Of a DNA stretch of 64,000 nucleotides, positions 20,446 through 64,000 are shown one piece after another. Below the pieces are notes generated by a model. That model searched no databases. It saw only the letters and a program-made list of their open reading frames with translations, and was not told the origin of the DNA. A program made the translations under genes and the position numbers. Source of the stretch: Climacium dendroides. Lineage: Eukaryota > Streptophyta > Bryopsida > Hypnales > Climaciaceae. Location of the stretch: positions 28,267,029 to 28,331,028 of the forward strand of contig OX467083.1 of NCBI GenBank assembly GCA_950106755.1. The letters run 5' to 3'. The first letter of the stretch is position 1, and every line of letters begins with the position of its first letter.

Positions 20446-21901
20446 TTATAGACTGCTACCTACAAGAAGTAGCTTCACCTCATCAAAGCTCAAACTTGGT
20501 ACATGTATGTACTTATTGTCCTCAAAATTTGCCTTGCAAATGAACCTAAAGACATAATACAAATGCTTGCAGTTCACTCAAGATTTCCTACTACCAAGTG
20601 CAATTGTACTCATGGTGATGAAGTCTTTGCAGGTACAAGCAAGAAAGTCTGAAATTGTGACTCGTTAGACCTTCTAGTTGGAAAAGATGCCGGACAATAG
20701 AGTTATCACTCTACCATAGCTAGGATATGGAATAACGACTACGGATTGAATGACAGCTTTTAGATTTCGTGCTGTCTCCCATTTGTTGCAGTGGTCAATT
20801 GTCGGTGCATTAGGATTACGTCGTATGGTCCTACCCAATCGCCTTATCGGGTGCATATCACCATCAGATGGTTGAAAATTGCTATCTGGCTGTTTTGAGT
20901 GAAGAAAAGACACACCTCCATCTGTACTCTCTTCATTAAAGAGATGGAGCATAAGAACATTGCTTCATTTAGTTCCTCAGTTTGTAATTGAAATCCTGCT
21001 TCCTCTAGAGAAAGGATCTCTGATTTGGTGAGATGTGTTCCACATGCAATAGGCCATACATTTGGCAAAGGAGGCTAGTCGTGAACCCACTTGATCTTAG
21101 AGCCTCCTGCACAATGCATAAGGTCATCTGTACAAAACCAAAAATCAAAGTTGATGATGGCCTTGGTTCCATATTCTGTCATGCGGCCGTTGTAGGTAGG
21201 TGCTGCTATTCCACTCTTACTTTACTTGTTTATCTTGGTCCCACATTTCTTCTTCATCCCAACTTGAACTCTATGACAAGTCTTTCCTTCCTTTTTGCAT
21301 CTAGCAATGTGCCACAAAGTAGGGTTGTAGTTTGTTTCAAGTACCTTAGTGTGCTTGGTTGCCCTTCCTCTGTCAACATTGGTGTCGGCGTTGGCATTGA
21401 TGCGCCTGGTTCAGTGCATGCTCTAGTTGACCGAATCTAAACTTTGGGTGCAGAAAAGTTCACTGTATTGTGGCGGTGAGAATCACTATCTGACCTAGGT
21501 GGTAAGTTTAGTTTGCGTTTTAAATAACCAAATACTTCTTCCCCTTCCAAGTGGGGGAATTCTTGTGGTGAATAGACAAGCATTTGGTAATTTAGCAATA
21601 GCCTCAGCAAAGTTTGCTGGATTTCCGGTTTGTCTTGCAACTCGTAGGCGAAGTTCATCTAAGTGGGGACCAGTCCAGATGCATACCCTTGAAGGTATGC
21701 CCTTGGAGGTATCTTGAATAGCATGATTGTAGATGTGACTTGAAGTCCTTGAGAATCAAATAGCTCTTCTTCCACCCATAGAGACGACAACTCTAAATTG
21801 AAGCGTACATTGAGAATCAAAGTAGATACCCATGCACTACCGCCATCGCTATAAGAAAAAGAAATTGGAATGCTGGACTTGTCACCACAAACAAGTGCCA
21901 T
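20446..21901 (-). pseudogene. SWIM-zinc-finger (Mutator-like) transposase, internally deleted copy
   Basis: The N-terminal part (ATG 21901 to about 21437) matches the start of the copy at 54631 (VRFNLELSSLWVEEE against VRFKFVESSIYVEEE) and then the later LEGEEVFGYLKRKLNLP segment (against LEGEKIFGSTKRKLDVP). The C-terminal part (about 21090-20446) has VWPIACGTH...EILSLEEAGFQLQ, IRRNPNAPT..HCNKWETARNLK and a SWIM zinc finger (CTCKDF...VNCKHLYYV), ending at TAA 20446-20448. The central catalytic region present in the second copy is absent. Several stops and frameshifts are present. It is divergent from, and about 460 bp from, the plus-strand ParB/methylase-like gene. Confidence 0.75.
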
Positions 21902-23958
21902 GTCCATATTGGAATGTGTATACAATCTATAAATTCCTACAGACTGTCATTGCTTACATGGAACTATTGGTAGGATCCCAAAAGTTTCTAGCGAGAATAG
22001 GTAAAAGACAAAGAGGTAGTGGACATGGATTTGACTCTTTTTATATAGAATTTTGGTAATTTGGAATTTGGAATTTGGAATTTGAATTGAAGGCTCCATA
22101 TTTAAAGATTTAATGCATGGCCAATAATTGAATTTTTTAAATTTAGTTACCAATACCCAATCTTTGGAATAATGAATTGTACATAGCGCCACTTTCACAT
22201 TGAAGGGTGATTAGAAGGGTCCAAATGGAGGCCTCTTCCAATGTAGTGGTGGTATATTCAAATGTGAGAGTGATTATGAAGCAGTTGAGTGAAGAATGGA
22301 TGATCTTATTGACCATTTATATCCTGGTTAGTAGATGTTTTATTTGGAGAAGTTATAATGAATTGGATGAGAATACATTCATTAGACTTGAAGAGTGCTA
22401 TATATCGGAGAGATTGCGGTATTGCTAATGAAAAAGTCCAGTTCGCTTTCTTGGATTTTTTGGTTGGAGGGATGCTGAAGGGTTCTCATAGAACGAGATG
22501 TAAAGCAGGACTTCGCTTCTCTAGCAAAAAACAGCTAGAAAGATCGAAGATGTTTAGGCGCTTACAAAAATCCAATGGTGATGAAATTAGTAGCATTGTT
22601 CGGACCTTGTCGTATGAGGATGATGGGATTGAAAATGCACCTTTTGAATATGAGTTTAGTTTGATACAAAATAGTGAAGGAATGGATATTGCCAAGCTTG
22701 ACACTATTGATGAAACTGAAGTGGACGCATGCCAACCAAGTATGCTAGAGAAGAACATGTCCCTAGTGATCAGCGCAGAGTTGGTAAGTTTATGTATTCA
22801 TTGGTAGGATTGGAGCCATTAGATTGTGAGGAGTTAATTGTATGTGTTGAATATTTTTTGTTAGAGGTGAATTTGACACCAAACTTCATTTCATGTATTT
22901 TGAGAAGACGATTCCAACGGTATATAACACGCAAAAAATGGAGCATTTTTGAATGTTCTACGGCCTAAAAACTAATTCAGCATCTTGGAATCTTCTCTAA
23001 AATCTTCAGAATCGGCTGATTTTTCAGCCAAATCTTGCCCAAATATTTGTAGAAGACTTTGCCGATTTTTGTAAAATTTCTTGTAACTTCAAAAAATCTG
23101 GAAAAAATTGGGGTTACTTTTGAGGTTATAATCTATGTGCTCCAAAAAAATTGGACCAAAAATCTATGAAATCGCAGATTTTATTAGAAAGATTCCCTTG
23201 GCCTAAATCTACCAATCTCTTCCTTCTCCATTGCTTGAAACCATCTTTTTGAAACCTAAGAACAACTCCATGGGTTGATCTTTGGCTTGCTTTGGTATAG
23301 TTATTTTCCTTCTCCATTGCTGTGTTTTGGCTTAGGGTTGCTTCCAAAATGAACTTACAGAGTGGCATGCTATGCAAGGATGGAGAGGCACACGGCGACG
23401 GTGGAGAGGGTGTCTCCGACACCATTAAAGGCGGCAATGCGGTGGAAGTTCAAGTTCCTACAAATCCTCAAGAGGTGCCATTTCTGAACACCCCTTTTTC
23501 AGGTTGTAAACTTGACCTCGTTGACGAGGTCACTTTTTCAGGGATTTAAGAGATTACTCAAACGGTTCCGGTTTTCATGTATGATTTTCAGAAGATTGCA
23601 ATTTCAGGGTTTGAAATGTGACCTCGTTGACGAGGTCACATTCTTGGGTTCTTTATAGTCTTACGAAGACGATTTCTAATTTTGATGCATAATTTCAAAT
23701 TCTTTCTACAAGTTGTTGAATTAGATTGGAAAACGTGACCTTGTCAACGAGGTCACTTTTTCGAGATTTTTGAAATCACTAAGATAATTTCAGTTTAAGA
23801 TTTAGATTTTGCTTTCTCTCGTAAGGTTTGCTGAATTAGATTGCAAAATGTGACTTCGTCAACGAGGTCACTTTTTCGAGATTTTTGAAATCACTAAGAT
23901 AATTTCAATTTAGGATTTAGATTTTACTTTCTCTCGTAAGGTTTGCTGAATTAGATTG

Positions 23959-24730
23959 CACTAGTAGAAAAACAATGACCATGTCAACAAAAAATTAACA
24001 AAAAAGTGTTGAGGGTGTTTGTACCCGTGGTCGCGTTGTCTTGGACAATACCTAACAAAAAACTGTTGTTCATTTTGTTATGGTGGTCAAATAAGAAAAA
24101 TAATAATATTAATTCATTTTTAAATTTGCTCAATGAATGACTGTCACATGCAAAGCCAAGAACCAACCCAGTACAAACTGCTATGTAGGCAAAAAATAAC
24201 ACATATAAATGACCAAAAATTAGACTTTACAATTTAATTACAAGAAAGCTAGAATTTACAATTAATTTAGGAGACAAGTTTCATAGGCCTAAGTATTTAG
24301 TGATAGAGGAGAGGTGACTTTAGTGATAGAAGATTAAAGGAGACAATCTCTTTATAGAAATGGGGTGGTAGGAGATAAAACAAACCATATGGGATATGTG
24401 AATTAAGACTATGAATGATTCATGTATCCCATATGGTTTGTTTTGACCTTTTATCACTCCATTTGTATAAAGAGCTTGTCTTTTCCTCTCTTATGTCATC
24501 AAAATCACCTCTCTTACATCACTAGTGTATAAGAGGTTGTCTTCTTCAGAAAGAAGTGTTAACTTTTTTGTTGATGTGGATGTTGTACTATTTAAAGCAA
24601 CAAAAATTCAATGCCCATTTTGTTAGCTTGTTCAAATGAATTGAAAAATTGTTAAAACGGTCAATACAGTATCCCAGTCAACAAAAATTTATTAAATTTT
24701 TGTTGACTTGGACACCATTTTCCAATAGTG
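23959..24730. mobile_element. Non-autonomous CACTA element, 772 bp
   Basis: The left end is CACTAGTAGAAAAACAATG and the right end is the inverse of CACTATTGGAAAATGG. The target duplication is TTG (23956-23958 and 24731-24733). It interrupts one unit of the palindrome array exactly between TTAGATTG and CAAAATG. It has no coding capacity. Confidence 0.88.
24297..24526. repeat. Inverted repeat of about 230 bp nested in the CACTA element
   Basis: Arms of about 100 bp centred on base 24410 (for example CAAACCATATGGGATA on the left against TATCCCATATGGTTTG on the right). It is either the CACTA element's own fold or a smaller MITE nested in it. Confidence 0.7.
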
Positions 24731-27667
24731 TTGCAAAATGTGACCTCGTCAACGAGGTCACTTTTCCGAGATTTCTGAAATCACTAAGACCATTTCAGTT
24801 TAGGATTCAGATTTTGCTTTTTCTCGTAAGGTTTATTGAATTAGATTGCAAAATGTGACCTCGTCAACGAGGTCACTTTTCCAAGGGTTTAGAGAGGTGA
24901 CAAAAATAATTTAGTTTTCATTTTAGGCTTCAGTTTTCTCAAAGAGATTGTTGAAATGGATTGCAAAATGTGACTTTATTAACGAGGTCACTTTTCCAAG
25001 GGTTTAGAGAGATGTCAAAGATAGTTTAATTTTCATATTAGGCTTCAGTTTTTTCTAAGAGACTACTGAAATGGATTGCAAAATGTGACCTCGTTAACGA
25101 GGTCACTTTTCCAAGGGTTTAGAGAGGTGACAAAGATAGTTTAACTTTTCATTTTAGGCTTTAGTTTTCTCTAAGAGACTACTGAAATGGATTGCAAAAT
25201 ATGACCTCGTTAACGAGGTCACTTTTCCAAGGGTTTAGAGAGGTGACAAAGATAGTTTAATTTTCATTTTAGGCTTCCATTTTCTGTAAGAGACTGCTAA
25301 AATGAATTGCAAAATGTGACCTCGTTAACGGGGTCACTTTTTCAAGGGTTTAGAGAGATAACAAAGATAGTTCAATTCTAATTTTAGGCTTCGGTTTTCT
25401 CTAAGAGACTGCTGAAATGGATTGCAAAATGTGACCTCGTCAACGAGGTCATTTTTTCAGGGTTTAAAGGGATTACTAAGAGAATTCAGTTTTCACTTTA
25501 GGCTTCATTTCTTTGCCTTCTCACTACTGAAATACATTGGAAAAAGTAGCCTCGTTGACAAGGCTTCTTTCTTCGGATTTTTCAGGGATCACTTACATAG
25601 TTCAGTTTTCACTTTAGCCTTCATTGTTCTTTCTTTACACTATTGAAATACATTGGCAAAACAGACCTCGTTAACAAGGTCACTTCTACCAATGTATTCT
25701 AAACACTCACTTAGAGAATCTAAACTTAAGTATGAGGTTCAAAATGTATTTTTCCGATGGTTGCTTTGGGCTGAAAATGTAACCTCGTTAACACGGTCAC
25801 TATTTAGGCTGATTTTTAATAAAGATGTAAAAAATACTTATTCTTGTTTTTTCAAAATAGAGCTTTATGGACATCGATGGAGGACTTCCACAAATGGAGC
25901 GTTTGGAGCTAGTCACCAATGATGATTCTTAGCTTGTAGTTGGCAATCCTCAGGTTAGATGCATTTCTATTTATTTTTGTATGATAAATTTTATGATTGA
26001 TTTTGTATTACAGTTGTCGTTGTATTTGTTTTCATTTCCATGACTTCTTAATGTTAACTATAACTTGGGTTCAATTTTCTATTGATTGTAGGTTGACAGC
26101 ACCATTGATATTCAAAGTGCTGATCAAGTTTTTGAAGGGCGAACGATAGATGAGGTGGAAGTGAATGTGCGAAATGATCAGAAATTGGACTCCAATGCAG
26201 TCATCAATAGCATGCTCTTCAATGGTGGTGGTTTAGGATCTCGATTTGATATTCCTTTCTACAGGATGCTTAGGCTTCTATTGGTTTGTCCTCTCCTCCA
26301 AAGTCAAGTGAAACGATTGGAGGCTCAGTTTGTTCATGGATATTGACAAGGTGATCGTGTACTTTACGTGTTAACAACAAATGACAAGGGAGCTTCCAAG
26401 TTAGTGACACTTGAGATCGTAGAGACGTGGGATGAACACTGAATACACGAGAATGACCAATTTGAGTGTTGGTTGAATTCTCAACCAACCATCTCACACT
26501 TGTCAAATCACATATTTTTCGTATGGGATGGCAATCACAAATTGGCGGCTTGGTATGCTTGCATTCACAGAATGCATCGTCATGACCGCAAGTGGCATTT
26601 GCCTGTTGATTATATCGGTTATTGGTGTCCGAAGGTCGTACATGCATTCTATTGGAGGCTATGAATGACATCAATTGGTGAGTTCCAATGTTTGTTAAAT
26701 CAATATTTATTTTATTTTACCACTTCTTCAATTGTATTGTAATATTCTATGTTTTCACATTCATTCATCTTACATTCTATTTTCATTGATATTTGCAGAT
26801 CTACAGAGCACTCCCATGTCAAAAGCAACTTGGTTCAACAATTGCATAGAATGAGTACCTATGACAACTTGCAAATGGAAGAGTTCAAGGGGCTTCTAAG
26901 TGATGAAGATTACAAGAAATGTGAGGCCAGAAAGCTACCAGGTGCTTGGTATCCATTGACATCTCCCATCTTCATACAATTCCTTTATCTGGTGAGTATC
27001 TTTTGTTTGTAATACTTTTTCATTCAATTGTTGTGATTTGTAAAATTCATTTTATACTGATTTCAAGTTCATGTTTTTCATGTGTAGCAAGAAATTGTTA
27101 CTGTTTCAGATGTGGCTGTGCGAACTTACTATGAGAAGACACGGTTGAAAAAATGAACTCCAAAGGGTGTTCATGAGGCCATAACTCAAGCCACCACTGC
27201 AGCTATCAAAGGATTTTGAACGGAGTTTGATAAACAATCCGCCATTGCAAATCCAAAAAATGGCATTGGATTCCTAGAAGAGGTATATTATTATGCCTAC
27301 TTGCTTTTTTTATTTATATGATTATTTTTGGACTTGATTTTTACTATACTTATGTCTTTTCAAATTTTAGATTAACTTGCATTAGAGCACCAACAAGAAG
27401 CCCGAGATGTCTTTGGAGAAACTTCAAAGGATTTCTACATGCCAAGTTCAACCAAACCACAAGGTTCGTTGGCTTAGGTGGTGGAATTCAAGTGAGACTT
27501 CTAGGGAGGGTTTCAGATTCCCCGCCCTCGATTTCAACACAATGACCTTAGAGACTTGGCTCTATAAGGCCTCATTTTGGGTTGAGGTATATAATCAACT
27601 TTTTTTTTCATTCATATGAAAAAATTTACGTTTTACAAGTTTATAAATATTTTGATTTTTATCTTAT

Positions 27668-27979
27668 AGTTGTACCATACCAAAAAGTGGTAAGAAGGAA
27701 ACGTAGTCAAAATTCACTGTGGTTCTTTTCTCTACAATTCTGTACATGTTGTTAACTACAGCTGCAGCCTTCCTTTTCAATTTTTGAATTGAATTTTTGG
27801 AATTTCATAGCATATAATACCTTTCCAATGGTATATTACATGTCATCAAATTTCAAAAATTGAGTTAGAAAATGAAAAAAAAAAATTGCAGTAATAGTCA
27901 ACAGCATGTACAACATTGTGGAGAAAAAAACTACAATGAATTTTGATTGTGGGTCTTTTTACCATATTTTGGTATAGTA
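27668..27979. mobile_element. Inverted-repeat MITE in the methylase-like gene
   Basis: Ends read GTACCATACCAAAA and, inverted, GTACTATACCAAAA. Inner arms also pair (TCAAAATTCA/TGAATTTTGA and TGTACATGTTGTTAAC against GTCAACAGCATGTACA). It occupies the place where the front half of the methylase domain is expected. Confidence 0.7.
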
Positions 27980-28993
27980 CTAGTAAAATTGTATTTGTCA
28001 AATACTAATTGTCATACTTGTTTATCCCTTGTAGTCACAACACTTTCGGATCCTCTTATTTGTACGAAGACAATGGGAGGAAACATCGGTGGAATCCAAA
28101 TTTTCTATCAGTATAAACCAACAACTTAGTGATGCAGGTACAGACCTTGAAGAAGTTGACCTTCTCCACAACTATACCTCCTTGCAGACTCAGCTCATAA
28201 ATGGTTCAATTCCGTGGAGAGGTGCCCGTGAGAAAGATCCTCTATTTGTACAGCTACTAATCAAGGCATCTTCAAAACCTGGTGATGTGGTATTGGATTG
28301 TTTTGCATCTACAGGTACCTTTCATTAGTCATTACTTTTTATTATTGAAACCATATAATTTTTACATTGTATGTAATATATTTGGTGCAACTGATGACAT
28401 TGCATTCAACAAACAGGGGCCTCTATTCATGCATGCCGCAACATTGGACGTCATTTGGTGACCTTGGAGAGCGATAGTGAGATTTTTGAAGGTCTTCTTC
28501 AACCTTTGATCATCCTTTCTACTTCTACTACCACCGTCCAAACTAAGCGGCTTTTGCCTATAATGTTGGATGATTTTGATGACGATGACATTGTCAAGCC
28601 TTCTACAAGGCCTCGAAAAAAAACGTTGTTGTAAGTAAGTTTGTTGATGCTTTTAGGCATGTGTTTATTTTCTTTTATTCTGCAATGTCTTTTAATTTAT
28701 TCAAAGTTTCTAATTATTTAATCATTGCATCTTGTAGAGGCAATTTTCTCAAGCATTTGGTGCTCTCGCCTTCTCCTAGTCCAAAGAGTTTGCCATGTTA
28801 CATTGAGACTCTAGCGACATCTATAGCAGAGGCTCCATCACCCATTTCTATTGCCAAACATCGTTCATACAATATTGTTGTCAAGAAGTTTTTAGACCTT
28901 GAAGCAAATGTTGAGACACCAAGGCTTACATATAGTGATAGTAGTGAAGCTAGTGATCATTCTTCTCCCATATGTGGCATTGGGTCAAATTGA

Positions 28994-29783
28994 TTTTGTT
29001 CTAAAGATTGTTGTTGTTACTTGATTTTCTAATGTCATATTGTGAGACTAAAAAGGTCACTACATTCTTGCACTTTACCATATTCTTAAGTTATTTTGCA
29101 TTTTGGTGATCTTTAAAGTGGTAGTGAAAAGGGCATCTACTTCAAGAGATAATGGTTACTGTTGTCAATTAGTAGAAATTTTTTTGGATTGAATCTATTT
29201 CTTTCTATTAGCAATATGGTACTTCTCTTTGATGAAAACATGTAATTAGAAATAGTAAATGTTGGTGTTAGCATAAAAATAAATTTGGTGAACTTTACAA
29301 ATGCTTGAAAAGAATTGTGAATTTTAATTAGAAATGGTATCTTCACCCTAAAATGGTTTTAGAATACCATATAAGTATAGGTCCTTAACTTAAAAAATCC
29401 CACTTAAACCTTGGATTTAAAATACTTGATAAATGACATTTATCTAAAACAAATGATTTTATAGTTCAAATCATTGATTAATCATCCAAACTCATTTTCA
29501 TCCAATGTCATGAACAAATGTATTTCATTCAATAAAGTCAACTAAAAAATAATGCATCCAACTCTGTTCATCTCCATTCATCTCCATTCATCTCTATTCA
29601 TCCTCTTTGAGTGCATCTATAGTTTTATGCTTTTATAATAAATCATAGACCAAAAATCCTTATGGTAAAAAATTATAGGTTTTCCACAAAATTTCAAAAA
29701 ATTCTCAATGCTCAACACTCATTGCTCATTGCTCAACGCTCAACACTCATCGCTCCTTGCTCATACTTTAGCAACCCTGCATC
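28994..29783. other. Gene-free spacer
   Basis: Nothing recognisable apart from a short CTCCATTCAT tandem run near 29570-29600 and a run of GCTCAACACTCATTGCTC-type repeats at about 29706-29765, just beyond the end of the Harbinger fragment. Confidence 0.5.
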
Positions 29784-30704
29784 TCAAACTACTTCCCCAG
29801 CGTCCAAAATTACAGCTTGATCATCTTCGTTGTGGTCATTCAAACCCTCTATGCAAAGGACTTGTAGAAGTGTCTCCAAGTCATCATGTGATTGGCCCAA
29901 GAGCATGTTGTGAAGAATAGCACAACATGTTATGACATCTGATAAAAAGGTGACCTACAAATCTGATTTAACTAGAAGTTCTCGAAAGGTCTGCTTCAAA
30001 ATGCCAAAGGCATTTTCCACAACACCACATCCTCAACGAAGCTTTCTATTAAAAAGAGTGTCGACTATGGGCAAATTTCCATGTCCTCTGTGTGGCACTA
30101 TAAGCCAAGGTAGTAAGGGATATCTGGAATCTGGCCATGCGATTTCAGACCTCAAGGACATGTTAATGGCTTCCACTACGTCCCGCATTACCGATGAGAC
30201 AATACTTTTTCCTCTAGCAAACATTTGGCTGCAAATAAACAAGCTTGCACCATGAGTAAGTTTAAACAATGTGCAAGCAACTCAAACAAGCACTAAAATA
30301 GACAAGCGGTACTTGGTATCTTTCCATTGAACTCTTGGTTTCAAAATTTCTGCTAAGTTGTAAATAGTGAACTTTGTCATGCGGAACATTGCGATCCATT
30401 TCTCGTTGTCATATTGGTCCAACAAAAAATAAGAGAACCACGTTGTCGATCTTGACTTCACCAGATCATCTTCAAGGAGATTGAAAACATTGCTCAATCT
30501 AAAGGTATGTAGGGCAGCCCATGTCACGGTTTCAATGTTGAAAGATGGTTCATCTGATGTCTCCGTAATAAGTTCTAGAGAATTCTCAGTATCCTCATCC
30601 ATGTCAAGATGAGGAGGATCAAATGCCCGATTAGTGGACATCAGTAGGAGAAGGATAGTCGAGGCTACAGCCATCAACTCCAATGAAGAAGCAAGGAAGT
30701 CCAT
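29784..30704 (-). pseudogene. PIF/Harbinger (HARBI1-like) transposase with core deleted
   Basis: Minus strand. The N-terminal FRMTKFTIYNLAEIL segment and KLTHGASLFICSQMFARGKS helix-turn-helix region are typical of Harbinger transposases, as is the following IAWPDS. The sequence then jumps to YPLLPWLIVPH and, after a frameshift, to VVENAFGILKQTFREL and CCAILHNMLLG, which come from the far end of the catalytic domain. The part between, with the first catalytic aspartates, is missing; the jump falls at DS, which occurs on both sides in this family. The stop is TGA at 29784. Terminal inverted repeats were not found. Confidence 0.8.
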
Positions 30705-35620: not shown

Positions 35621-35764
35621 CGCTTGAGTGCAGTCCAAGCCTTGTACCTGCAGTCCCCCGACAATTCGTCTATCAGGAATGGGTAACCACCGACGAGAAA
35701 CCGGCTACGGAGAAGATGGACTTGCCCTTACCAGCAGGTACAAGGCTTGGACTGTATTCAAGCG
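35621..35764. repeat. Inverted repeat, 33-bp arms
   Basis: The left arm 35621-35652 contains CAGTCCAAGCCTTGTACCTG and the right arm 35732-35764 contains its near-exact inverse. The loop is about 80 bp. Function is unknown. Confidence 0.75.
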
Positions 35765-41440: not shown

Positions 41441-41445
41441 AAGAG

Positions 41446-41642: not shown

Positions 41643-41649
41643 TTTCTAT

Positions 41650-48499: not shown

Positions 48500-48597
48500 A
48501 TGACCTAAAATGGGAGTACCGCTTGATGGTACCTCCATCACCGTCAGACATGACGGTGTTTTATGTACCATCAACCGGTACCCCCATTTTAGGTCAT
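48500..48597. repeat. 98-bp foldback element, copy 1
   Basis: Starts ATGACCTAAAATGGG and ends CCCATTTTAGGTCAT; nearly the whole 98 bp folds on itself. It belongs to a family with copies at 57136, 58803 and 60025 of identical length. It lies in an intron of the minus-strand transposase. Confidence 0.85.
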
Positions 48598-52900: not shown

Positions 52901-53655
52901 CAAGAGTCGACTTCGTGAGTGGTTTCCGGACGTCATTAACTTGATGGGGAGATCGACCGGATTGTTCCAACAGTAGTGTTAGTGTACTACCGCTTGGATG
53001 CCGGTATAGCCTAAGGATAGGATACGACCTTAAATGTAAGGGTATCTGAGAGGCTGCTAGCAACTTCCGTGTACGGGAGTTTGCAAGACGTGCCCAAATT
53101 CCAGATGCCGGAATTCTCTATAGACAGAGTCAAAGCCCCGACGTAATGCCAAGAGAGTGCGAGGATATCCACCCGGTCGACGGGAGGCTCAGTGTCAGGG
53201 TAATGCTAGAATGTTGTTGTAGTCCTTGACCGTCTCTGCGTGACCTGGTCCGGTAAGCATTCTGGATTTGTGAGGTGACGGAACAGTAGGATACTTCCGG
53301 TCTCTGAAGTGTTAGTTTAGTATCAATATTAGAGAGAAAGAGAGAGTGTTTTCGGACACGATAAGCATTCGGACGGTGGATTTGGCCACTCGTCACCTAA
53401 ACCCAGGGATTCCGGAAGGAGCAACTAAACGGTTTCCGGACTTTTCCGGAATCCACCCGGCACTAGTGGCTGGGCTGGATCGGACCTGTAGTCCGGATTA
53501 TTAAGAAGGAGAGAAAGTGAATGCTTAGGTCGAGTTAGCCTATGAATCTGTAAACCTCAAGTCCTCGTGGGAACGATTCCGGAGCGGTTTACTCTAAGTG
53601 GGCCTTTGGTGAGAATTAAGGGCTAACTGGAGGAATACTGGTCCGACTAATCACT
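49962..53655 (+). mobile_element. GC-rich 3.7-kb insertion in the transposase intron
   Basis: Begins TGTGGGAATGTGATCCCACA, an LTR-like palindromic start, and ends within about 15 bases of the exon edge at 53662. Composition changes abruptly from AT-rich to GC-rich, with a very high density of CCGGA/TCCGG. It contains one long plus-strand ORF relic and a TATAAGAGG about 200 bases upstream of its ATG. I could not find a second LTR, a primer-binding site or a target duplication, so the class is uncertain: an LTR-retrotransposon derivative, or a gene-carrying insertion. Confidence 0.55.
50473..52416 (+). pseudogene. Coiled-coil gag-like / plant-mobile-domain-like protein relic
   Basis: A single reading frame of about 647 codons from ATG 50473 with only four stops and no frameshift: TAG 50830, TGA 51364, TAG 52033 and TAG 52135. 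Layout: basic N-terminus; a poly-proline run (MPPPPPPP); a globular part with WLERLRWNLTNMG and a helical SPLPAYISHLYSQHSLFKADE region; an acidic and proline-rich linker; a long coiled coil (about 51650-51870, EKQNAFLIEEQKRLVTEL); a proline/serine-rich tail ending in basic RHKRPKR. I do not recognise the family with certainty; the layout resembles gag-like proteins of large plant retroelement derivatives. No protease, RT or integrase is present. Confidence 0.5.
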
Positions 53656-54631
53656 ACACACTCCACTCTGTTTCGTTGCGCTTAGAAGCCTTCTTCAAGT
53701 AATCACACTTTGGGTTTAAGCAAGCAAGATGACCAGCGCAATGTAACTTACGGAATTTCAAGTTGTCGGAGTTGTGAATATTTGTTGTCTCCAACTTGCA
53801 CCACGGATGTCCATCATACCGCTTGTCCATTCCTTCTAAGTTCTTTGCCGCAGACGAAGAAGCCGATGACTGGTATGGAGGCAATTTTAAGATAACATCT
53901 CCGTTGAATACTGGTGGCAAAAACTACACGCGATGGTGCTTCATGTTGTTCAGTTCCATTGATGACAATTCGTTTCTGGATCGGTGCATGCTAGCTAGCC
54001 TCCTCAAACACTCCATTATACTCACTCGGTCAACAATATCTGGGTGTAAAGGAGGACGCAAGAAAAGAGACTGGGAAGGACTATTGACTGGAGCGCTAAA
54101 CAAGTCCCCAGAAACTTTTTTCTCCGATGTAGTTGCCAAAAGGCATGGCTGCAATTGAAGCATCAAATTTGGAGACTCTCCTTCCGATTCACTTGATAAT
54201 TCTATGATAGAATGTAATTTCTTGAGTTTCACTGGACGAAGTGGTGCAAGCTTTAGAACGTCTGACAGCCCTTCACGAGGTGAACTCGGTGAAACTATGC
54301 GTGTGGTGTATGGCATATCTACTATTGATGTATTCGATTGTCGACTAGGAATCTCAGTTGATGGAGCTAATAGGGACAAAGGGAGACCGTAAACCCTATA
54401 GTTACCGGAAGCAAGGTACCAACAATGTCCTTGCTCTTCCACAGATGCCTCAATAGGAACAGACTGCAACAATTCACCTGATTCTAACATCTTCTCTTCT
54501 TCAACATAGATAGAAGACTCCACAAATTTGAAACGGACATGCAATAGGTGACTAAAAATACGAGCACTCCCATTCTCAGCAACCGAAAATACAAAAGGAA
54601 CTTCATGACCATCCATTCGAATGCAAGCCAT

Positions 54632-55369
54632 GATGACAATGTGTGTACAAGAAAAATTAAAAGATTGCTAATTGGCAGTTCTGTATTATAGAAGAAAAAT
54701 TGAAGTTTGGGGAGCACAATACATATGTCCGTTACAATTACCATCAATAATGGAAGAAGACAAGATGCAGAAGTAGTTGGCTTTAGCTTTATTATTATTA
54801 GTTGTTACTTATACTGACTATTCTATAAGCGCCGTCTAAGACTTCTAGTAGCACCTTCAAAAAGAATAGCATTGAATTATGACGGCTGTGTTAGTGAAAA
54901 TCTAAGTTTGAGCCAGAATTTTTTTTGAAAAACAGCCATCATTCCCTGCCAAACATAGCAAGCTCCAAAATTGAATTTCTTTATATAAGGCCTAGTAATC
55001 TATAGCCTTACACATTTGTTTACCAAACACATCTAATAATTACTGATAGATCCTTGAAGGCCTAAAACTACAAAAGACCCATCAATTTGAATATAGAATT
55101 AAGGGGCAAAGGTCTGTCACAGTCATATTTAGATTACTAAAGGCTTTTCCATAAATTTTGACGGCTACCTATACAAGTTGTCAGGCTTCTTTGATTTTGA
55201 ATTGTATAGGCGGCTATTGTAGAATCCTACTCTACAATAATATAAAATATTGTCTACGACAAGTGCTTTCTTGTGCATAAGTACTTGCCATAGTCCACAA
55301 GCATAGTCTCTTCATTGTAGTCTTAGTATCCTAGCACTTGCTCTTGAGAGTAATAGGTTACATGCTCCA
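54632..55369. promoter_or_regulatory. Divergent intergenic region between transposase and ParB/methylase-like genes
   Basis: About 740 bp separates the two start codons. The equivalent region in the first copy (21902-22357) is about 460 bp. It is AT-rich, and no specific promoter element can be asserted. The conserved head-to-head arrangement suggests shared control. Confidence 0.4.
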
Positions 55370-57135
55370 TTGTCTGCCTTCATGCTTGCTGTGAACATTA
55401 GGTCTCTGTTGACCGCTCCTGAAAAGGCAAAGACTCGTAAGAAGCGTAGTTTTCTATATTTTTCTTCTTCTAAGGCACTCAAGAGATCTAGAATGATGAA
55501 GGGAAAGAAAGTAGTGTCTAAGATAGGTCAGTCGTCACCTGGTGCTCTTCGTAAGTCACTGCACTTTGAAGGAAGAGGAACTAGCAAAGAAGAGGATGCA
55601 AGAGGCAACAACTTGGAGACGGTGCTGGAATTTAATGAGCAATCTACTTGCGCACAGCATCTATCAGAGGAAGAAGTCATTGGTATTGTAAGCATATATC
55701 TTTCTATTTCTTCAAGTATCAATGCATTTCTTTAGAGATTTCTTTCAATTCTTTCTTTCTTTCTTATGACATAGAACTTGTTGGTGTCTTTGCCACTTGC
55801 TCTGCAATTGAGAAGAGAGTATTAGCATTCAATGGTACTCGCACTATTTTGTGTCTGTAAAATGTCTGCATTAAGGTAGGGTGCTCGAACTCCAACTATG
55901 CATTTAGAATCGCCCCTGTAAATGGTATTGGAATGGACTGGAGGTGGTTTTTGAATTGACCTTCATTGTCATGAAATGAATCAAGAAAATTACTATTTAT
56001 TATTGCAAGAGCCAATCAATCTCCTTTCTTTCCTCATTTCTTATTAAAAGTTGCAGTGAGCACTTTATGAAAGACCTAGAATCACAAATAGGGACCTACT
56101 ACGCATCTCGTTTGGAAATTCATAACTAATTAAAAAATGATCCAAAAAATATGAAACAACTTGGGTTAGATGCCAATTCTTCTTTTCTTTCAAGTAAAAT
56201 TGATTCAAAAATATATTGAGCAATTTTAACTGCAGAAAATTCAGTTCTAGTGCTTAGATGGTCGATTTATGGACCAACTACCTTACATTCACTATTAGTT
56301 GGAAGGTGTGGTTCCACACAGAAGTAGATCCTCTTCATATTTGAGAGTAATTTTCGTTGTCATGGTCTATAGGATGTGTGCATGCATGGCTCCTCAAGTG
56401 GCTTTGAGGTCATGCTTTGGCTTTACCGTAAGATAAGCCATTTGCAATCTTGCCAAAGAGAAATCATCCTGTTATAATTAGTATATGCGGTTGGCAAAGT
56501 ATTTTTAGGCAATGCGCTGCCATTCTCTCTGGGCTTCCACTTGATTTGCACAATTCTTCAAAAGTGAGCATGAAAATTTGTTTCTATTTTCAAATACCAC
56601 CTCATCAACATAAAAATAGAAATCCTATGAACTGGCATTCTAGAATAGCAAGTTCCAAATTCTTTATCCCGAAACTTTTGGAACATGCCTTGTACTGCGC
56701 TAGAGAGATGTGGTACCTCTTTCACTACATGTGCAGCCTGTTGAAATTCTGTCTCTATAACTTTGGTGCGGTACTTCTTTCACTCGATGTGTAGATTGTT
56801 AAGTCTTTTTTTTGTGTGACAATTGGGTTTTGATTTGAAGCAAATGTCAAATCAACAGCGTGAAGGCGAAGTGGGCAACATGCGGACAAGGCAAGGACAT
56901 GTGCTTCAAGAAAATTCCATGGAGTCTGAGGAAGAGAGCCTTCCAAAGCCGAACGTTGTCTCCCAACATCAACCTGCACACGAAGTACAGGTAAGTTATT
57001 TCTCCTTATCATCAACCTGTGAATTTGAGGGTCAATAGTCGAAGGACTTCGTAGCACTAGAAAATCATATTGAATCTGATCAAGGAATCTGATTCACCGT
57101 AGTGACCACCTGCAGAACGATTCGACTTTTAGTTG

Positions 57136-57233
57136 ATGACCCATTTTGGGGGTAGCGTGAGCCACCCCAAAAACCATCGGTGGGTCCGACAATGGTTTTG
57201 GGGGTCGCTCATGCTACCCCAGAAATCGGTCAT
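57136..57233. repeat. 98-bp foldback element, copy 2
   Basis: ATGACCCATTTTGGGGGTAG ... GGTCAT. It contains the inner ACCATCGGTGGGTCCGACAA palindrome. No target duplication is evident. Confidence 0.88.
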
Positions 57234-57302
57234 CGTACTTGTCTTGTCGGGATTCATTTTCTTAGAAGTTGTAGCAACTGGACTTTTCGGGGACTCTCTG
57301 GC

Positions 57303-57638
57303 TTCAAGAATGCGTTTCCCCAGGCATGGTTGTCATAACAGATAGCATACTGTTCACATGCAAATCTGAGATACCCGCTGACAAAACAACAAAGGCTGCC
57401 AGCCTTCGGACCCCCATAACTTTCTCAAAATTGATCCAAATCGGGAATATCAAATGTTTTTTGGCATCTACAAAAAATTTGCATGCCAAAAAACATATAA
57501 TATGCCCGTTTTGAATCATTTTTGACAAAGTTATGGGGGTCCAAACATTGGCAGCCTTTATTGTTCCGTCAGCGGGTATCTCAGATTCGCTTGTGAACAA
57601 TAATTTGTTGTCTGTTATGACAACCATGGATTCTTGAT
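57303..57638. mobile_element. Inverted-repeat MITE, about 335 bp
   Basis: Outer arms are TCAAGAAT...ATGGTTGTCATAACAGAT and their inverse (ATCTGTTATGACAACCAT...ATTCTTGA). The inner arms match over more than 100 bp (GAGATACCCGCTGACAAAAC; GGACCCCCATAACTTT). It lies in the intron of the ParB/methylase-like gene. Confidence 0.85.
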
Positions 57639-58802
57639 CCAAAGATTTCAGGGATCCTTCCTTTGTCAGGTTCTTCACGCGCTTCTGTGATCTAGAGATT
57701 CTTGAAAAAAGAATAATGTATTTTTGGAAGACTTCGAGGGAGTTAGTTAATAGTTGCTTTGCTGCCTTTTTGAAGATCATATGCTGTGTTTCTTGATCAT
57801 GATTGTGTGAGGCTGTTAGATCACATTGATTTTACTTTGTTACCAAGGATGTTTAGGAAGGTCGCTGAAACTTTTTGGAAAGGTGTCTCTTGTAGATCGA
57901 ATGCGAAGCAGAGCTATGCACTCAATAATATTGTAGAACAAATTGGAAATGGGAAGGAGAGCTATGCATTCAATGGGAAGCTGTAGAACAAATGGGAAAT
58001 GGGAGGTAGAGTTGTAAAAAGAATGGGAAATGGGAAGTAGAGCTGTGCACTCAATTATTGATCAATAGTGATTACTTCCTAAGTAATTCAAGTGGTTTAA
58101 GAATGATTAACTCAGCATTGATGAAAGCTTAATGAAGTAGTTTTACTCCATAGTAGTTCTCAGTGGAATCTTTTAGAGAGCTCGCGCTAGAGCTTGGTTG
58201 CAAATACTGAACTTCAAAAAGTCAGAGAGATCAACGATGATAGTCTTTCGGTAACATCAATTTGCGGTAAAATTAATTTGCGGCTATCAGGACTTGTCTC
58301 CCACAAATCATGGCATACTTGAAACAATTTGCATGAAGCGAGACAATAAATTCCAGCCATCTCATGGACCTTCACATTTGCATCTTGGGATGCATTAAAT
58401 ATCAGTCTTAGTTGTCTAGAACCTGTGAGAGATACTCTTGTTTGATCCTACAAGATTTCTATCCCTTCTCCCGGTTTTTGCTTGGTGCCGTACCAGATGG
58501 CGTTAACATCGTTAAAATTTTTTTTCTTCTCCAAAGTCTGTGAGTTCCAGCATGGGCGAATAGATCAAGATTTGTGAGCTAGACATAGATATGTGAGCTA
58601 CCGAGCCACATGATTGAGCCAGATAATCAAGCGAATTCGGAATTAGGATGACTGAGATAGGTGATCGAGTTGAATAGAAATTAGTCAGGTAGAATAAAAA
58701 AGTTGTTATTTCCTAGGAAGTCCATGTGAGCAGGATAACTACAAAATAATACCCTCTTTGCAATCCCAAACAAAAAGCAACGTTTTAAATTTTTCAGTGT
58801 CG

Positions 58803-58900
58803 ATGACCGATTTTGGAGGTAGCGCGAGCTACACTCGAAACCACCGTCGGACCCGACGGTGGTTTTGAGGGTAGCTTGCACTACCCCCAAAATCGGTTAT
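58803..58900. repeat. 98-bp foldback element, copy 3
   Basis: ATGACCGATTTTGGAGGTAG ... ATCGGTTAT. The inner ACCACCGTCGG/CCGACGGTGGT is a perfect palindrome. Confidence 0.88.
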
Positions 58901-59352
58901 TGACAAAGATGTGTTGCGTAGCTGCTTTTGTGTCTCCGAAGGTTCAACTCCCTAATCTCTAGACCGCGCTACGAATGTTCAGTTCTTCAGTCTCTCTGAA
59001 GCTTCGAAGTCTCTTCGATGGTTTCATGAACTTATCGCAAATTTACTCCCTCGAATCTTGCTTTGCTCCAAATCTCAGATAACTCTACGATGTTGTAGTC
59101 TTCTTAAGCCTTAGATTAGTCTCCAAACCTGCTTTGCTCGGAAAAGTCTTTGGAATCTTAAGTAGTATGTAACTGCCACGTTTTTGTACTCAGAGTAGTT
59201 CATTGGAAATTTGGAATCTCAAATTCCTCATGCTAGATTTCATAAATTTTGTTCCACTTTACTTCATTATTGGATGATCGAATACCCATTTTGGTTTTGA
59301 TTGAGTTCTAGTTTTAGGAAGTTTGAGTCTCAAGGTTGATTTATTTTGATTA

Positions 59353-59480
59353 CACTAGTAGAAAACGTAGGAATTTCAACAGAATTCTGTTGTTTCGGTC
59401 TCGTTGTTTTGGTCACTGAACAACAGATTTCTGTTAATTTCAACAAAAATCTGTTGAAATTCTTGCATTTTCTACTAGTG
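59353..59480. mobile_element. CACTA-type MITE, 128 bp
   Basis: Ends CACTAGTAGAAAACG and inverse. Target duplication TTA (59350-59352, 59481-59483). The interior is an inverted repeat around GGAATTTCAACAGAATTCTG. Confidence 0.92.
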
Positions 59481-60024
59481 TTAAGTTTGAGCTTGATTAA
59501 GTTTAAATGTATTTAAAGAATTTTTTAGTATAAATTTGGATATGATTACATATATTTGAATAAGTGTAATTAGGTTTGATTAGGTTTAAGTTTGAATAGG
59601 TTTGAGATTGATTCTTTTTAAGTTCTAAGAAGGTCCAACTTCGTAAATTATCTATAAAGTTCATTTTTTGTTTTTTTTATTAGAATCAAGATTTCCATTG
59701 GATAGTCAATTTCTGCACTGATTCAATCAATTTTTTTATAGAAAAATTTAGTTTTATTTGATTATTTAAAGGGTTTAGGATAAGCCAACAGTCACCTAGA
59801 TAGTTGTCAGTATACATGTTTTGGCAAGCATGTTTGACTAGACTGATGACTAGCGCGAGCAATATTTATTGTTTTGCTAAAATGTGTGTAAGTCAAGATA
59901 AATGGGTGTCAATTTTTCGGATATATACCCTTGGGGCTTGTGAAGGACGGAAGAAGAAGGAAAATTATTTTAAATAGTAATATTTCTCTAAAATTGACCA
60001 TTATCTTGAACAGGTTTTTTATAG

Positions 60025-60122
60025 ATGACCTATTTTAGGGGTAGCGCAAGCCACCCCTAAAACCACCGTTGGGTCCGACAATGGTTTTGGGGGTGTCTTA
60101 CGTTACCCCCAAAACAGGTCAT
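60025..60122. repeat. 98-bp foldback element, copy 4
   Basis: ATGACCTATTTTAGGGGTAG ... AACAGGTCAT, with the inner ACCACCGTTGGGTCCGACAA palindrome. Confidence 0.88.
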
Positions 60123-63100
60123 TACCAATGGACTATGTAGATATTGTTAAAATTCTGCGACCTTAGGTGATTGATTATCTTAAGTTAATGTTCTCCATGC
60201 GGGCATTTACTTTCAAAAATTACTTACAAAATTTATAGTTAGAGTTTTCTTATTAAGCCAATCACTTAGAAAGTTTAATTACACAATTTTGTTCTTGTAC
60301 ATAGGTCATTGAGAGATCTATAATATGTTCATTTATTTGACCATTGTCTACATAGTAGGAGTATTAGCAACAAAGAATTTATGATAGTAATGACATGCAT
60401 GAAATAATCATAGATAAATTTTTAAAATGATTTTTAAAGCCCATTCGAATATGATAATATTTTGAATGAATTATGTAATGAAATTTGTAGATGATGACCG
60501 AGAATATCATAATGTTAATATTGATTGATATTTATTGATTGAGGTTAAAAATTACTCTCAAGTAGTGTAAGTTGAAGATTCATGCTTTGCAATCTTTCAA
60601 TTGGAGAATTTATTGTGTTTGTTCTTGAAAGACGTTTATTTTATTTAAATTGTGATTATAATCCTTTCTGTTTTTTATTGGCATTGCATTTTTAAAATTG
60701 AAGACTAATATACACTTTGGTGTTATTTGTTTATGGAATAGGGCCTTGAAAATTTGGGGCAACCATCTACTTTGAACTTACCAATTGTTGGTGGGGAAGA
60801 GGTGGTAGTGATTAGCGAGTCCTTGCCTAGAATTCCTGCATCAGGAAATGTTCAAATCAACATTGGTACTTCTACTCATGTGGACCATGACATGGTAAGC
60901 CTTGGAGATGTATCAATTGTCAATAATAGTCTTTTAGCGTTTGGGCCTATGGCTTTTGCAAGTCATGTAGCTGAGGATAATCGTAAGCGAAAGAGGCAGC
61001 CAGTATTTTCTTCAGAGAGTTCTAGTACAGAATATAGCACTTCGTGCTATTCACAGGTCTCAGTTACTAGTCCTCAATTCGAGGAATACTGTGATTGTGC
61101 ATGTAGTGTGGCAGTCAACAGACATGAGGTGGTTTTCATTCACCTTACTTCTGACTCAGAAAGTGATGTGCAAGTGGATTGATTTTAAAATTCATGATAC
61201 ATCATACTTCTTGGGAATGTAATTGAATATTTCTAGTATCACTTGTGTTTTCTTCTAAATGTTTGAAAGATTGAGTTCATGAATTATGTATTATTTATAA
61301 TCTTTGCTTCAAAATGTCTTGAATTGCACATGTGTACGCATTTGTTTAATGGTATTCATTTGTTTTGGTTATCAAATTATGATGTAATGTTTTTTTTTCT
61401 AATATTCAATGTAGATGGAGGAATCGCCTTTGAACTTGACTGAAGAAGTGCAATTGTTTCAGATACCAGGGACAGATGAGTCTGAGCAACCCAAAATAGG
61501 CGGTCAAGATGAAGGGGATATTGCAATTCCAGAGATTGAAGAGGAAGAAGATAAGGAGCTCCTAGAAGATGACCTCCGTCGTCTGCAGAAAGTTGATTCA
61601 GTGGCAACTATTGCAAGTCTTCGAATAAGACCCGAGAAACTATCCCGAATGCGCATTCCCTTTTGTAGGCTGGTGGCTATGCCTATGGTAAGGCCGACTC
61701 TTTCCTCTGATATATTGAAATTGGAACAAGAGTTCGTGTTTGGGTATCGCGAAGGAGCGGCAATATTCTACGTGTCTACTACGAATGAGGCAGGAGAGAG
61801 TTCTGAATTCTCGACCGAAGAGATGAATAGTTGGGATTCTCTATGGAAGAAAGCAAACAAAGATTTTGTGGAGTACCTTGAGTCTATGCCTAAGTTGAAA
61901 TACATGAAGAATATGAAATTCTTCATTTGTGATGGCAACCACTGCCTTCTTGCTTGGATGAACCACATTAAGAAGAAACACATGTTGGATCCAAATTGGC
62001 ACTATGAAGTGGATAGCATAGTGTTGGAAACTAAAGGAAGGATTGAGCTCACCATGCAAGTTATGCATGACATAAACAAGTGAGTATTTGTTTTTTATAC
62101 ATTTTGACTTTTTTCCTTATGACTCTCGTCATTTTTTCTAATTAAAACGTCATGTCCAGTAATGTGTACAACAAGAAATTTACTTGTTTTGCTGAATATT
62201 GAAATTTTGACATAAATTGCAGGTCCACGGAGGACTCTCACGTAAAGGCCAATTTGGTCCATACCTTGTATTGTGTCTAGAAGTATGGTCTTCTACCCAT
62301 GGAGAGGTTTATTGAGATGTTATGGCCGTCCGAGAGAAAACGGTGTATTACCCAGCCAGGGAAGAAGCATTGGTATTCAATGCCTTCTGAGGTTTTTACT
62401 TCTTTTGTTTTTCGGGTGAGAAATTGATAGTGTCACATTTTTATGTTCTTGTAGTTGAATATATAACATTGCTATGATTTCTTTGTTGCTTATTTAAATG
62501 TGCGTACTAAAAAATTTGTAAAAATTGAATCTATGTATTGTATTGTAGCAAGAGATAGCACAAGCTGCTGATAAAGCAGTTCGCACATATAATGAGACTA
62601 CACCAGACGAGGAGAAGAGTAATGAAGGAGTTGCTAATGCCATGCGATCTCCTGCTAAAGACAAGGCAACTAAGTTGCAGTCCAAAATGGGAAAGCTTTT
62701 GGCCGTGGCAAACCCTGCTTTTGGGCCTACATTTCTCCAAGAGGTAAATTGCACTTTCCATGATCATGAGTTGTATGTGCTTTTTGCTTATTGTGTTTTC
62801 TGGGTTTTATTTACGTGTTTCAATGTGTTTTGGCAGATTGAAAAGCATTACACCAGAAATGAGATTCTGGAGATGACACTTGAGAAACTACAATTGATTG
62901 CGACGTCAAGTTATCGCCACTTCAGAAGATTAAATGCTTGTAGTGGTGGAATACTTCTGATGCTTCTCGTGTTGCAAGGAGATTTCCAATTAAACTAGCT
63001 CCGGAAGATAAGCTTAATCCAATCCTGAACAAGTTCGGATGGTGGGGAGGGGTAAGTCAACTACAATCAAGGAATTATTTTATTATTCGTGACTTGGAAT

Positions 63101-63544
63101 TTTTCAAATCAAAAAATTATATAATGTGTAAAATTATTTTTTATCCAATTATTGAAAACTTTCTTTCATGGCCTATTAATTCAAATTGCAGAAGCAGCTG
63201 TGAAGTTCTTCGAAGATGTTGTACGAAAGGATGGCCTTCAAATCAACATGAACACAATCCCTGCTGTAGAGACCCTTGAGGAGTACATTGAAGGGTGGAG
63301 AATTAGACTTTGGGATCAAGCCTTTGGACCTACCCTAAAAAGGGGTATTGGTTTCAAGAAGTCAGCCAACTTTTCTACATATGAGGGCTCAGAAGAGGCC
63401 GTGAGAAGAGTTATATTTAGATATGATTAGAATCTTGTCATTATGACTTGCTTAATTGATTGCATATCATTACATATTCATTGTTTACTTTATGATTATA
63501 TTGGCTATTCAAAAATGTTCAAGTTTGTTGAAATGTCTTGAGTT

Positions 63545-63640
63545 AACCAAAATTGAAGGTATTCTGAGGTTCTTAAAAAACCACCGTCGGGTCCAACGAG
63601 GGTTTTTTAGGTAGCTCATAGTACCCTTAGTAATGGTTAT
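63545..63640. repeat. Foldback element, diverged copy 5
   Basis: It keeps the inner AACCACCGTCGGGTCC and the right arm GTAGCTCATAGTACCC...GGTTAT. The left arm is degraded. Confidence 0.7.
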
Positions 63641-64000
63641 GAGAAGATATTATTCAGGATATAAATTTGTTTTGTAACTTCTCTTTTAATGTTTTAAATC
63701 TAGACATGCCTTCATTTTATATTCTTACCATTTTGTATTAGTGAAATTTTGAAAAAGAAGTTATCAATTAAATATATGCTTTCTTAGTTGTAATCTTAAT
63801 TTTGGGTTTTGTTTTCTGTCAGGTACTTCAAGCATGAGCTTGTTCAAAAGAATGCTATGGTTTGTTCAGAACTTCCTCCATTCTTACCCACTTGGTTAGA
63901 TCATAGCTCGCCTAATTGCATGTACACCACGTCCCAGCTTCGTCAGTTTACAACTGCACATCTCACTGGGGGAGCATGGTATTTGGATTGTCCCATTACA

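Follow-up and report, generated by a model that had tools for sequence, protein, structure and literature searches.

Does a DNA transposon of a plant carry a bacterial-type DNA methylase with which it marks its own copies? The question was raised by a 64-kb stretch of the 412.6-Mb genome of the moss Climacium dendroides (positions 28267029-28331028 of contig OX467083.1; hereafter the window, numbered from its first letter), in which a transposase gene on the minus strand and an accessory gene encoding a ParB-like and a methylase-derived part on the plus strand diverge head to head at two loci and in the same orientation. A sequence-only reading of the window had proposed that the two genes travel as one unit and that the accessory gene supplies an active methylase for self-marking. 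Our analysis revealed that both loci (copies 1 and 2) belong to a single DNA transposon family, and suggested from the deduced protein sequences that the role of the accessory protein is probably to bind DNA and not to mark it, since the methylase active site was replaced in every copy examined.

Pairing of the Two Genes in the Window and Across the Genome

In the comparison of open frames, the ParB-like exon (E1) of copy 2 (61415-62080) matched positions 26155-26616 of copy 1 with 39% identity (E 3e-29), and the plus-strand exons E2, E3, and E4 also matched between the two copies. On the minus strand, matches were found at the N-terminus (21662-21946 versus 53927-54667) and near the C-terminus (21440-21658 versus 47786-48157) of the transposase gene, with scores of 89 and 119; the highest score among 20 shuffles was 58. 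The exon and protein matches thus bore out the shared head-to-head pair described earlier; the span then given to the elements was, however, too small, as copy 1 starts at 18365 and copy 2 at 43039. A nucleotide comparison of the two loci yielded no match that passed an E value of 1e-3, and their divergence is therefore old. Transposition and old duplication were inseparable on the two loci alone (39% identity); the search of the whole genome separated them.

The ParB exon of copy 2 as the genome query gave 1030 candidates, 150 of which were scored (all E <=1.3e-77), and a transposase exon gave 1992, of which 133 were scored (all E <1e-115). In these first lists, 60 of the 150 ParB copies had a transposase copy (of the 133 scored) upstream of them, head to head and within 12 kb, and other arrangements numbered 4; random placement gave a mean of 0.37 and a maximum of 3 in 200. 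With a second ParB subfamily added, which raised the ParB copies to 254, at least 80 of the 133 transposase copies lay head to head with a listed ParB exon at a median distance of 6.5 kb (random head-to-head placement: mean 0.58, maximum 4 in 300), and other arrangements numbered 7 (random mean 1.6). On the ParB side, at least 80 of the 254 copies were paired with listed transposase copies. These counts are lower bounds drawn from the scored part of both lists, and among eight random picks from the 53 unpaired transposase copies, four had a ParB exon 4.2-9.2 kb away in head-to-head orientation, one had it on the same strand, and three had none in the stretch read. Since at least 80 of the 133 were paired as listed and half of the unpaired picks also had a ParB exon in this position, the majority of the transposase copies are paired. 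As for the concern that most copies of the two genes might lie apart, the transposase side was not apart (80 of 133), whereas at least 80 of 254 ParB copies were paired, as counted against the 133 transposase copies listed.

Ends, Target Duplications, and Copy Number of the Family

Members of the family were about 11-15.5 kb in length, with ends of the form CA...TG, imperfect terminal inverted repeats agreeing at 15-16 of 28 positions without gaps, and target-site duplications of 9-10 bp. Of the seven elements read at both ends, six had such a duplication, in one case with a mismatch: copy 1 (10/10 bp), element B (10/10), L083 (10/10), L084 (10/10), L086 (9/10), and L087 (9/9). The seventh, L085, had no target duplication although both ends were read. 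Element B measured 15,492 bp with ATTTGTTCAC in both flanks, while the duplication of copy 1, CATCTCAAAC, occurred nowhere in the window besides its two flanks. A blind terminal-repeat search on copy 1 had found no pair with a target duplication, and its ends were located only once the genome copies had revealed the right terminus. Along with B (L033 and L034, left side L037), two further elements, A (L031 and L032) and C (L035 and L036), were fetched, the latter two in part only.

With the right end of B as the query (40 of 2427 candidates scored), at least 30 other copies, 96-99% identical, had ends no more than 10 bp from one common point, and the other matches belonged to the flanking repeat. 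The left end of B as the query (40 of 285 candidates scored) gave at least 39 other copies, 86-99% identical, that started within 5 bp of the left terminus, 26 of them exactly at the predicted base, 12 up to 3 bp off, and one 5 bp inside. Copies of the family number in the hundreds in the genome, and the family has probably moved recently, since many copies are near-identical (30 others at 96-99% at one right end). The terminal repeats and the 8-10-bp duplications that the sequence-only reading had proposed to look for were thus found, the former imperfect and the latter of 9-10 bp, and together with the pairing of at least 80 of the 133 transposase copies they sustained its view that the two genes travel as one transposon.

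L084 and L085 lie about 0.3 Mb apart in opposite orientation, and their left flanks are identical over 396 of 401 bp. The common left flank and the lack of a target duplication in L085 suggest, from the sequence, a segmental duplication or a recombination between elements.

The Methylase-Derived Domain

As judged by profile matches, the C-terminal module of the accessory protein does derive from an N6/N4 methylase, as had been claimed for copy 1. Exon E8 of copy 1 alone matched Pfam N6_N4_Mtase with an E value of 2.1e-5 and 25.0 bits, just below the cut-off of 26.7, and E8 joined with E9 reached 37.0 bits (PF01555). Element C scored 28.0 bits over profile positions 24-218 of 221, also above the cut-off, and element B and the L051 type scored 15.6 and 16.7 bits, below it. 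PHROG methyltransferases were matched down to 1.3e-8, and the best Protein Data Bank matches of the copy 1 tail were DpnA, MboIIA, and CcrM. When the family profile was aligned with DpnA (E 9e-5 overall; first segment alone only 8.3 bits), DCQEN fell on DPPYN and DCTASTG on DPFMGSG, with VDLILFDCQENLPV set against VDAIITDPPYNISV and VLDCTASTGASITAC against VLDPFMGSGTTGLAC.

In all 13 copies with the exon read (several of them close relatives), the DPPY of catalytic motif IV was replaced by D-x-[QP]-[ED], namely DCQEN in seven (A, B, copy 2, L044, L045, L049, and L052), DLQEN in two (C and L048), DYQEN in one (L057), DCPEN in two (L051 and L056), and DIPDG in L090, the only one of six loci fetched from the copy 1 subfamily that showed the exon. 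None of the 13 carried the beta-class form (D/N/S)PP(Y/F/W), the Y position being D or E. Motif I, the S-adenosylmethionine (SAM) motif, lacked FxGxG in 11 of 11 copies, which read DCTASTG, DCTVSTG, DCTAATG, DCTAAIG, DNTGATG, or DCFASTG. The first D of motif IV was retained, as was the acidic residue of the ALE/TLE stretch after motif I in 11 of 12 E9 copies (ALK in element A).

The median ratio of nonsynonymous to synonymous substitution rates (dN/dS; pairs with 0.05<dS<1.5 only, stop codons skipped) was 0.28 for E7 (5 pairs), 0.24 for E8 (9), 0.22 for E9 (21), and 0.32 for E10 (33), and the low values indicated that the domain is constrained despite the loss of its catalytic motif. E7 was found in eight of the 14 stretches fetched downstream of diverse E1 copies. 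When the genome was searched exon by exon for PF01555, none of the 88 candidates reached E<=0.001; this negative has small weight, because the search also missed the family's own exons and methylases split by introns could escape it.

The ParB-Like Part and the Exon Chain of the Accessory Gene

The accessory gene encodes, in order, an acidic N-terminal part, the ParB-like E1, E2-E5, E6 with a lysine/glutamate-rich stretch, the methylase-derived E7-E9, and E10. Elements A, B, and C carry counterparts of E0 to E10, which are presumably spliced into one chain. Every accessory exon of element C was in an open frame, whereas a stop was found within E6 in B (between E6 and E6b) and in E6 in A.

In a 23-row alignment of E1, CDGNH was found in 20 of the 22 rows covering the motif, the exceptions being L005 (DGNY) and L073 (DDNH), and VRPTL..LE..F..GY and FYVSTTNE were conserved on its N-terminal side; copy 1 reads WDGNH. 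We take this layout to resemble that of ParB/sulfiredoxin proteins, and the putative ParB-like assignment was made on the DGNHR motif and its spacing only. DUF1015 was matched weakly by 7 of the 23 E1 sequences (best E 0.024), and this family is, presumably, itself ParB/sulfiredoxin-like.

The median dN/dS was 0.15 for E1 (115 pairs) and 0.17 for E2 (45 pairs), and the E1 subfamilies were about 57-69% identical. Among 7988 public proteins scored against the E1 profile, at least 825 were relatives at E<=1, of which the best 120 were exon-sized and without a Pfam domain. A stitched accessory query of 561 residues gave only one relative (P0001, 339 residues), and a chimeric query of 946 residues gave none among the public proteins.

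The Transposase Gene

C-x-C..CKH stretches of the SWIM type were found in copy 1 (20664-20449, split by an in-frame stop) and in copy 2 (at 44767). The Pfam SWIM family (PF04434) was matched by the element B exon with an E value of 0.04 and 13.9 bits, below the cut-off of 19.6, and by the copy 1 stretch joined across the stop with an E value of 0.18, likewise below the cut-off. No Pfam family, MULE (Mutator-like element) profile included, matched the 504-residue exon of element B at E<=1, and the transposase is of the DDE type by our reading of its residues. The gene of element B had two in-frame stops near its N-terminus, that of C was open over the 594 codons fetched, and many copies had open frames of more than 700 codons.

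Palindromes in the Non-Coding Middle of the Element

In elements A and B and in copy 2, two to three palindromes of about 100 bp each were found between the two genes, upstream of E0. That of B was 92% self-complementary over 102 bp, the folding z-scores were -8.8 to -15.9 relative to simple base shuffles, and the palindromes made up five of the six matches between A and B in the intergenic region. Searched against the genome, a 121-bp palindrome query taken from copy 2 matched at 35 places (very common words are skipped, so diverged copies elsewhere may escape), 29 of them within 6 kb of a listed exon of the family. In 25 cases the palindrome lay 1.0-4.4 kb upstream of a listed E1 and in one 23.7 kb upstream; of the remaining places, four had a listed transposase exon within 6 kb, two had one at a distance of about 20 kb, and three were near neither kind of exon. 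The palindrome is a candidate binding site of the accessory protein.

Tandem arrays as a general binding platform were considered and rejected, since 14-mers occurring at least four times were found only in copy 1 (its 115-bp array) and copy 2 (units of about 38 bp in the transposase part). Elements A, B, and C as fetched had neither such 14-mers nor the 115-bp array.

Proposed Role of the Accessory Protein

We consider it rather probable, on the sequence evidence, that the accessory protein is a DNA-binding pseudo-methylase which acts at the element's own sites and aids expression or transposition instead of marking DNA. It would recognise the family-specific palindromes of about 100 bp in the non-coding middle of the element and, by analogy with VANC of the VANDAL elements, would keep the element expressed or help assembly for transposition, with no methylation mark being laid.

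Several observations weigh against this proposal. The part called ParB-like in the sequence-only reading has the DGNH motif, but no ParB profile or fold match was obtained: a Pfam ParB family was matched by none of the 23 E1 sequences, PHROGs gave no ParB entry, and two AlphaFold2 models of the ParB part had mean predicted local distance difference test (pLDDT) values of 38 and 45; a Foldseek list, given no weight here, had no match at E<=0.001. In-frame stops were found in 11 of 40 E1 copies, no methylase exon was found in 6 of the 14 stretches read downstream of E1, and the dN/dS values of E7 and E8 come from 5 and 9 pairs only. The palindrome of element C is weak (z -4.1), and the palindrome of about 100 bp is absent from copy 1, whose tandem array has another. 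Finally, since motif I of elements C and L048 reads DNTGATG and the acidic residues are kept, SAM binding could still be possible.

One alternative is active self-marking, in which the element would be methylated at N4 of cytosine or N6 of adenine by its own product through a non-canonical motif IV, against silencing or for transposition. The domain is indeed methylase-derived and constrained, the first D of motif IV and the acidic ALE/TLE residue (11 of 12 E9 copies) are kept, and such a role has been proposed for algal relatives in the passages of PMC12477816 drawn on here. Nevertheless, DPPY is replaced in 13 of 13 copies with Y turned into D or E, and FxGxG is reduced in 11 of 11; that the genome search for PF01555 gave nothing at E<=0.001 adds only a little, the family's own exons being missed too. 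With DPPY replaced in every copy read and the SAM motif degenerate, self-marking by methylation appears unlikely, and a still catalytic enzyme of this kind quite improbable; the active bacterial-type methylase of the sequence-only reading found no support. A bolder alternative would retain the anti-silencing role: the dead methylase joined to a ParB-type module would read palindromic, parS-like sites in the element's intron, spread or bridge, and block silencing, so that a partition-like machine would have turned into a sequence-specific anti-silencing system co-evolving with its sites. The palindromes do differ between copy 1 and the A/B subfamilies, which this alternative takes as co-evolution, yet we regard it, the co-evolving machine included, as doubtful.

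Less probable than the pseudo-methylase that we favour, but a possibility of some weight, is a role as partner of the transposase, structural or regulatory, in the transpososome or as a helper like mudrB of MuDR without an anti-silencing function. It overlaps with the assembly for transposition of the favoured proposal. Partition-type ParB proteins bridge DNA, and the divergent pairing is fixed, both of which would suit such a partner. Extra open reading frames (ORFs) occur in several Mutator-like elements according to the sections consulted of PMC6446971; no observation made here, however, separates a helper role from anti-silencing. That the gene is a captured passenger in the Pack-MULE style, functionless for the element, would accord with the broken state of both window copies and with the in-frame stops in E1. 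However, the gene is kept across E1 subfamilies, its arrangement is fixed, and at least 825 relatives at E<=1 exist in public sequence, while a dN/dS well below 1 disfavours the passenger; we regard it as very improbable.

Features of the Two Window Copies

The coordinates of both copies are summarized in Table 1. Both are defective: copy 1 lacks the transposase core, as no match to the DDE exon was found in the comparison with copy 2, and has in-frame stops in E1 and E3 of the accessory gene, and copy 2 has a stop, a frameshift, an insert, and a methylase exon E7 that breaks off past the window. The insert of about 3.7 kb (about 50.0-53.65 kb), recognised relative to element A, interrupts the transposase gene. 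The right end of copy 2 and the partner of GTGGTATTGG were not found in the 11.5 kb past the window. The match between the possible 5' accessory exons (22313..22804 and 55307-55732) is weak, its score of 48 being exceeded in 3 of 20 shuffles (49, 49, and 52).

Table 1. Coordinates of the two element copies in the window.
Feature	Position	Strand	Basis or remark
Copy 1, whole element, 11,415 bp	18365..29779	.	Ends and target duplication
Copy 1, left target-site duplication CATCTCAAAC	18355..18364	.	Identical 10 bp at both ends
Copy 1, right target-site duplication CATCTCAAAC	29780..29789	.	Perfect 10 bp
Copy 1, left terminal inverted repeat	18365..18404	+	CAACGGTGCTAGAGTGTGAGC.. versus right end (reverse complement) CAGGGTTGCTAAAGTATGAGC..
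Copy 1, right terminal inverted repeat	29740..29779	-	Matched to left end
Copy 1, transposase-gene remnant	20347..21946	-	Matched to copy 2 partner gene
Copy 1, remnant parts	N-terminus 21946-21662; C-terminal part 21755-21440; SWIM-like finger ~20664-20449	-	Finger split by a stop
Copy 1, possible 5' accessory exon (FSSKKQLERSKM)	22313..22804	+	Weak local match to 55307-55732
Copy 1, 115-bp tandem array before ParB exon	23497..25692	+	Palindrome GTGACCTCGTyAACGAGGTCAC
Copy 1, ParB-like exon E1 (WDGNHKLAAW)	26092..26670	+	In-frame stops
Copy 1, exons E2 (~26799-26991), E3 (~27088-27282, two stops), E4 (~27373-27586)	26799..27586	+	Ends by eye
Copy 1, methylase exon E8, motif I at end (VVLDCFASTG)	28035..28325	+	Pfam N6_N4_Mtase
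Copy 1, methylase exon E9 (ASIHACRNIGRHLVTLESD)	28416..28590	+	Pfam score when joined with E8
Copy 1, last exon E10	28751..28954	+	35% identity to E10 of element B, E 2e-4
Copy 2, element from left end to window edge, nested insert inside	43039..64000	.	Left end CAACGACGCTAGCGTGCGAGC, common to other members
Copy 2, presumed left target site GTGGTATTGG	43029..43038	.	Position beside left end
Copy 2, transposase gene	44564..54667	-	Matches to copy 1 and element A
Copy 2, transposase parts	N-terminus 54667-53657; DDE exon ~49960-48754; C-terminal part 48157-47786, 45454-45056	-	
Copy 2, SWIM-like finger exon	44959-44564	-	C-x-C..CKH stretch at 44767
Copy 2, possible 5' accessory exon	55307..55732	+	Weak match to copy 1
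Copy 2, palindrome unit a	57127..57233	.	
Copy 2, further palindromes	58798-58905, 60017-60122; weaker 63544-63639	.	
Copy 2, exon E0, 5' of ParB exon	60742..61179	+	Counterparts in elements A, B, C
Copy 2, ParB-like exon E1 (CDGNHCLLAW)	61415..62080	+	Genome-search query
Copy 2, exons E2 (stop at 62278), E3, E4 (frameshift ~62945)	62224..63051	+	
Copy 2, exon E5 and start of E6	63192..64000	+	E6, E6b, E7 run on past window (L043)

To the 3' side of the transposase remnant in copy 1, a 930-bp unit is duplicated in tandem at 18396-20240 (pieces 93-99% identical). Between the transposase exons of copy 2 (45800-47300), tandem units of about 38 bp carrying AATATGACT palindromes were found together with a low-complexity array rich in CAACAACTAAGA. 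The insert of copy 2 (50000-53650) is partly GC-rich (about 50%), and a further GC-rich stretch is at 36-38 kb. Fold-back repeats of about 300 bp occur in introns of both accessory genes (57325-57628 and 27664-27988). Elsewhere in the window, a Ty3-type retrotransposon with a chromodomain occupies 8591-14650, and its coding part holds an inverted duplication with 724-bp arms (10031-10754 and 11547-12270, 99% complementary). An open frame similar to superfamily 1 helicases (983-2164, minus strand; Pfam AAA_11, E 6.5e-30) is possibly a host gene.

Comparison with Known Systems

As far as the portions of the cited papers drawn on here go, bacterial-type amino-methylases are known in eukaryotes as active host enzymes, namely N4CMT of bdelloid rotifers and the N4-methylcytosine methylase of Marchantia (PMC8885841), and methylase-carrying Mariner elements have also been reported (PMC3627910). 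The present family shares with the rotifer and Marchantia enzymes the bacterial-type amino-methylase in a eukaryote; unlike them, its methylase part is element-borne and degenerate in its motifs.

Mutator-like elements are described in the consulted sections of PMC6446971 as having 8-11-bp duplications, a SWIM finger in many clades, and in some a second ORF that is sometimes antisense. Common to them and the present family are a target duplication in the 8-11-bp range (six of seven elements), terminal repeats, and a second ORF, whereas the SWIM-type C-x-C..C-x-H stretch here scored below the Pfam cut-off, the transposase exon matched no Pfam family, and the terminal repeats are imperfect. The VANC proteins of the Arabidopsis VANDAL elements bind repeated non-coding motifs and undo silencing, according to the passages used of PMC5735166 and PMC10398659. 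VANDAL elements and this family appear alike as DNA transposons with a transposase, accessory genes, and repeated non-coding motifs. In contrast, VANC has DUF1985/DUF287, with no ParB or methylase part mentioned in those passages, and its DNA binding has been shown, whereas that of the present protein is inferred; DUF1985 had no match in the part of the accessory exons that was scanned.

The closest precedent is Sola1-1_Ec32 of Ectocarpus, in which, according to the passages used of PMC12477816, a ParB-like/N4-N6 methyltransferase accessory gene lies opposite the transposase; the same passages cite green and red algal cases, one source being Petroll et al. 2025. The accessory gene of this type opposite a transposase is already published, and the idea is not new. 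The other source of the green and red algal cases is reportedly Iyer et al. 2011. Among non-subscription papers, judged by titles, abstract openings, and passages, no other report of a ParB-methylase gene in a transposon was recognised. The moss family has in common with Sola1-1_Ec32 and the algal cases a large DNA transposon, an accessory gene and a transposase encoded on opposite strands, and a methylase domain together with a part that is, in the moss, putatively ParB-like. It differs from Sola1-1_Ec32, as far as the algal sequences are known by description, in the SWIM-like transposase, the 9-10-bp duplications, the palindrome, and the motif IV lost in all copies read. Sola elements make 4-bp target duplications; those of the present family are 9-10 bp. 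A little-studied class of published accessory genes is now linked with a family whose ends are defined and of which many copies are near-identical. For this family we predict from the motif changes that the methylase-derived part now serves as a reader without catalytic activity; if this were true in the algae too, the idea of a self-methylating transposon would need revising.

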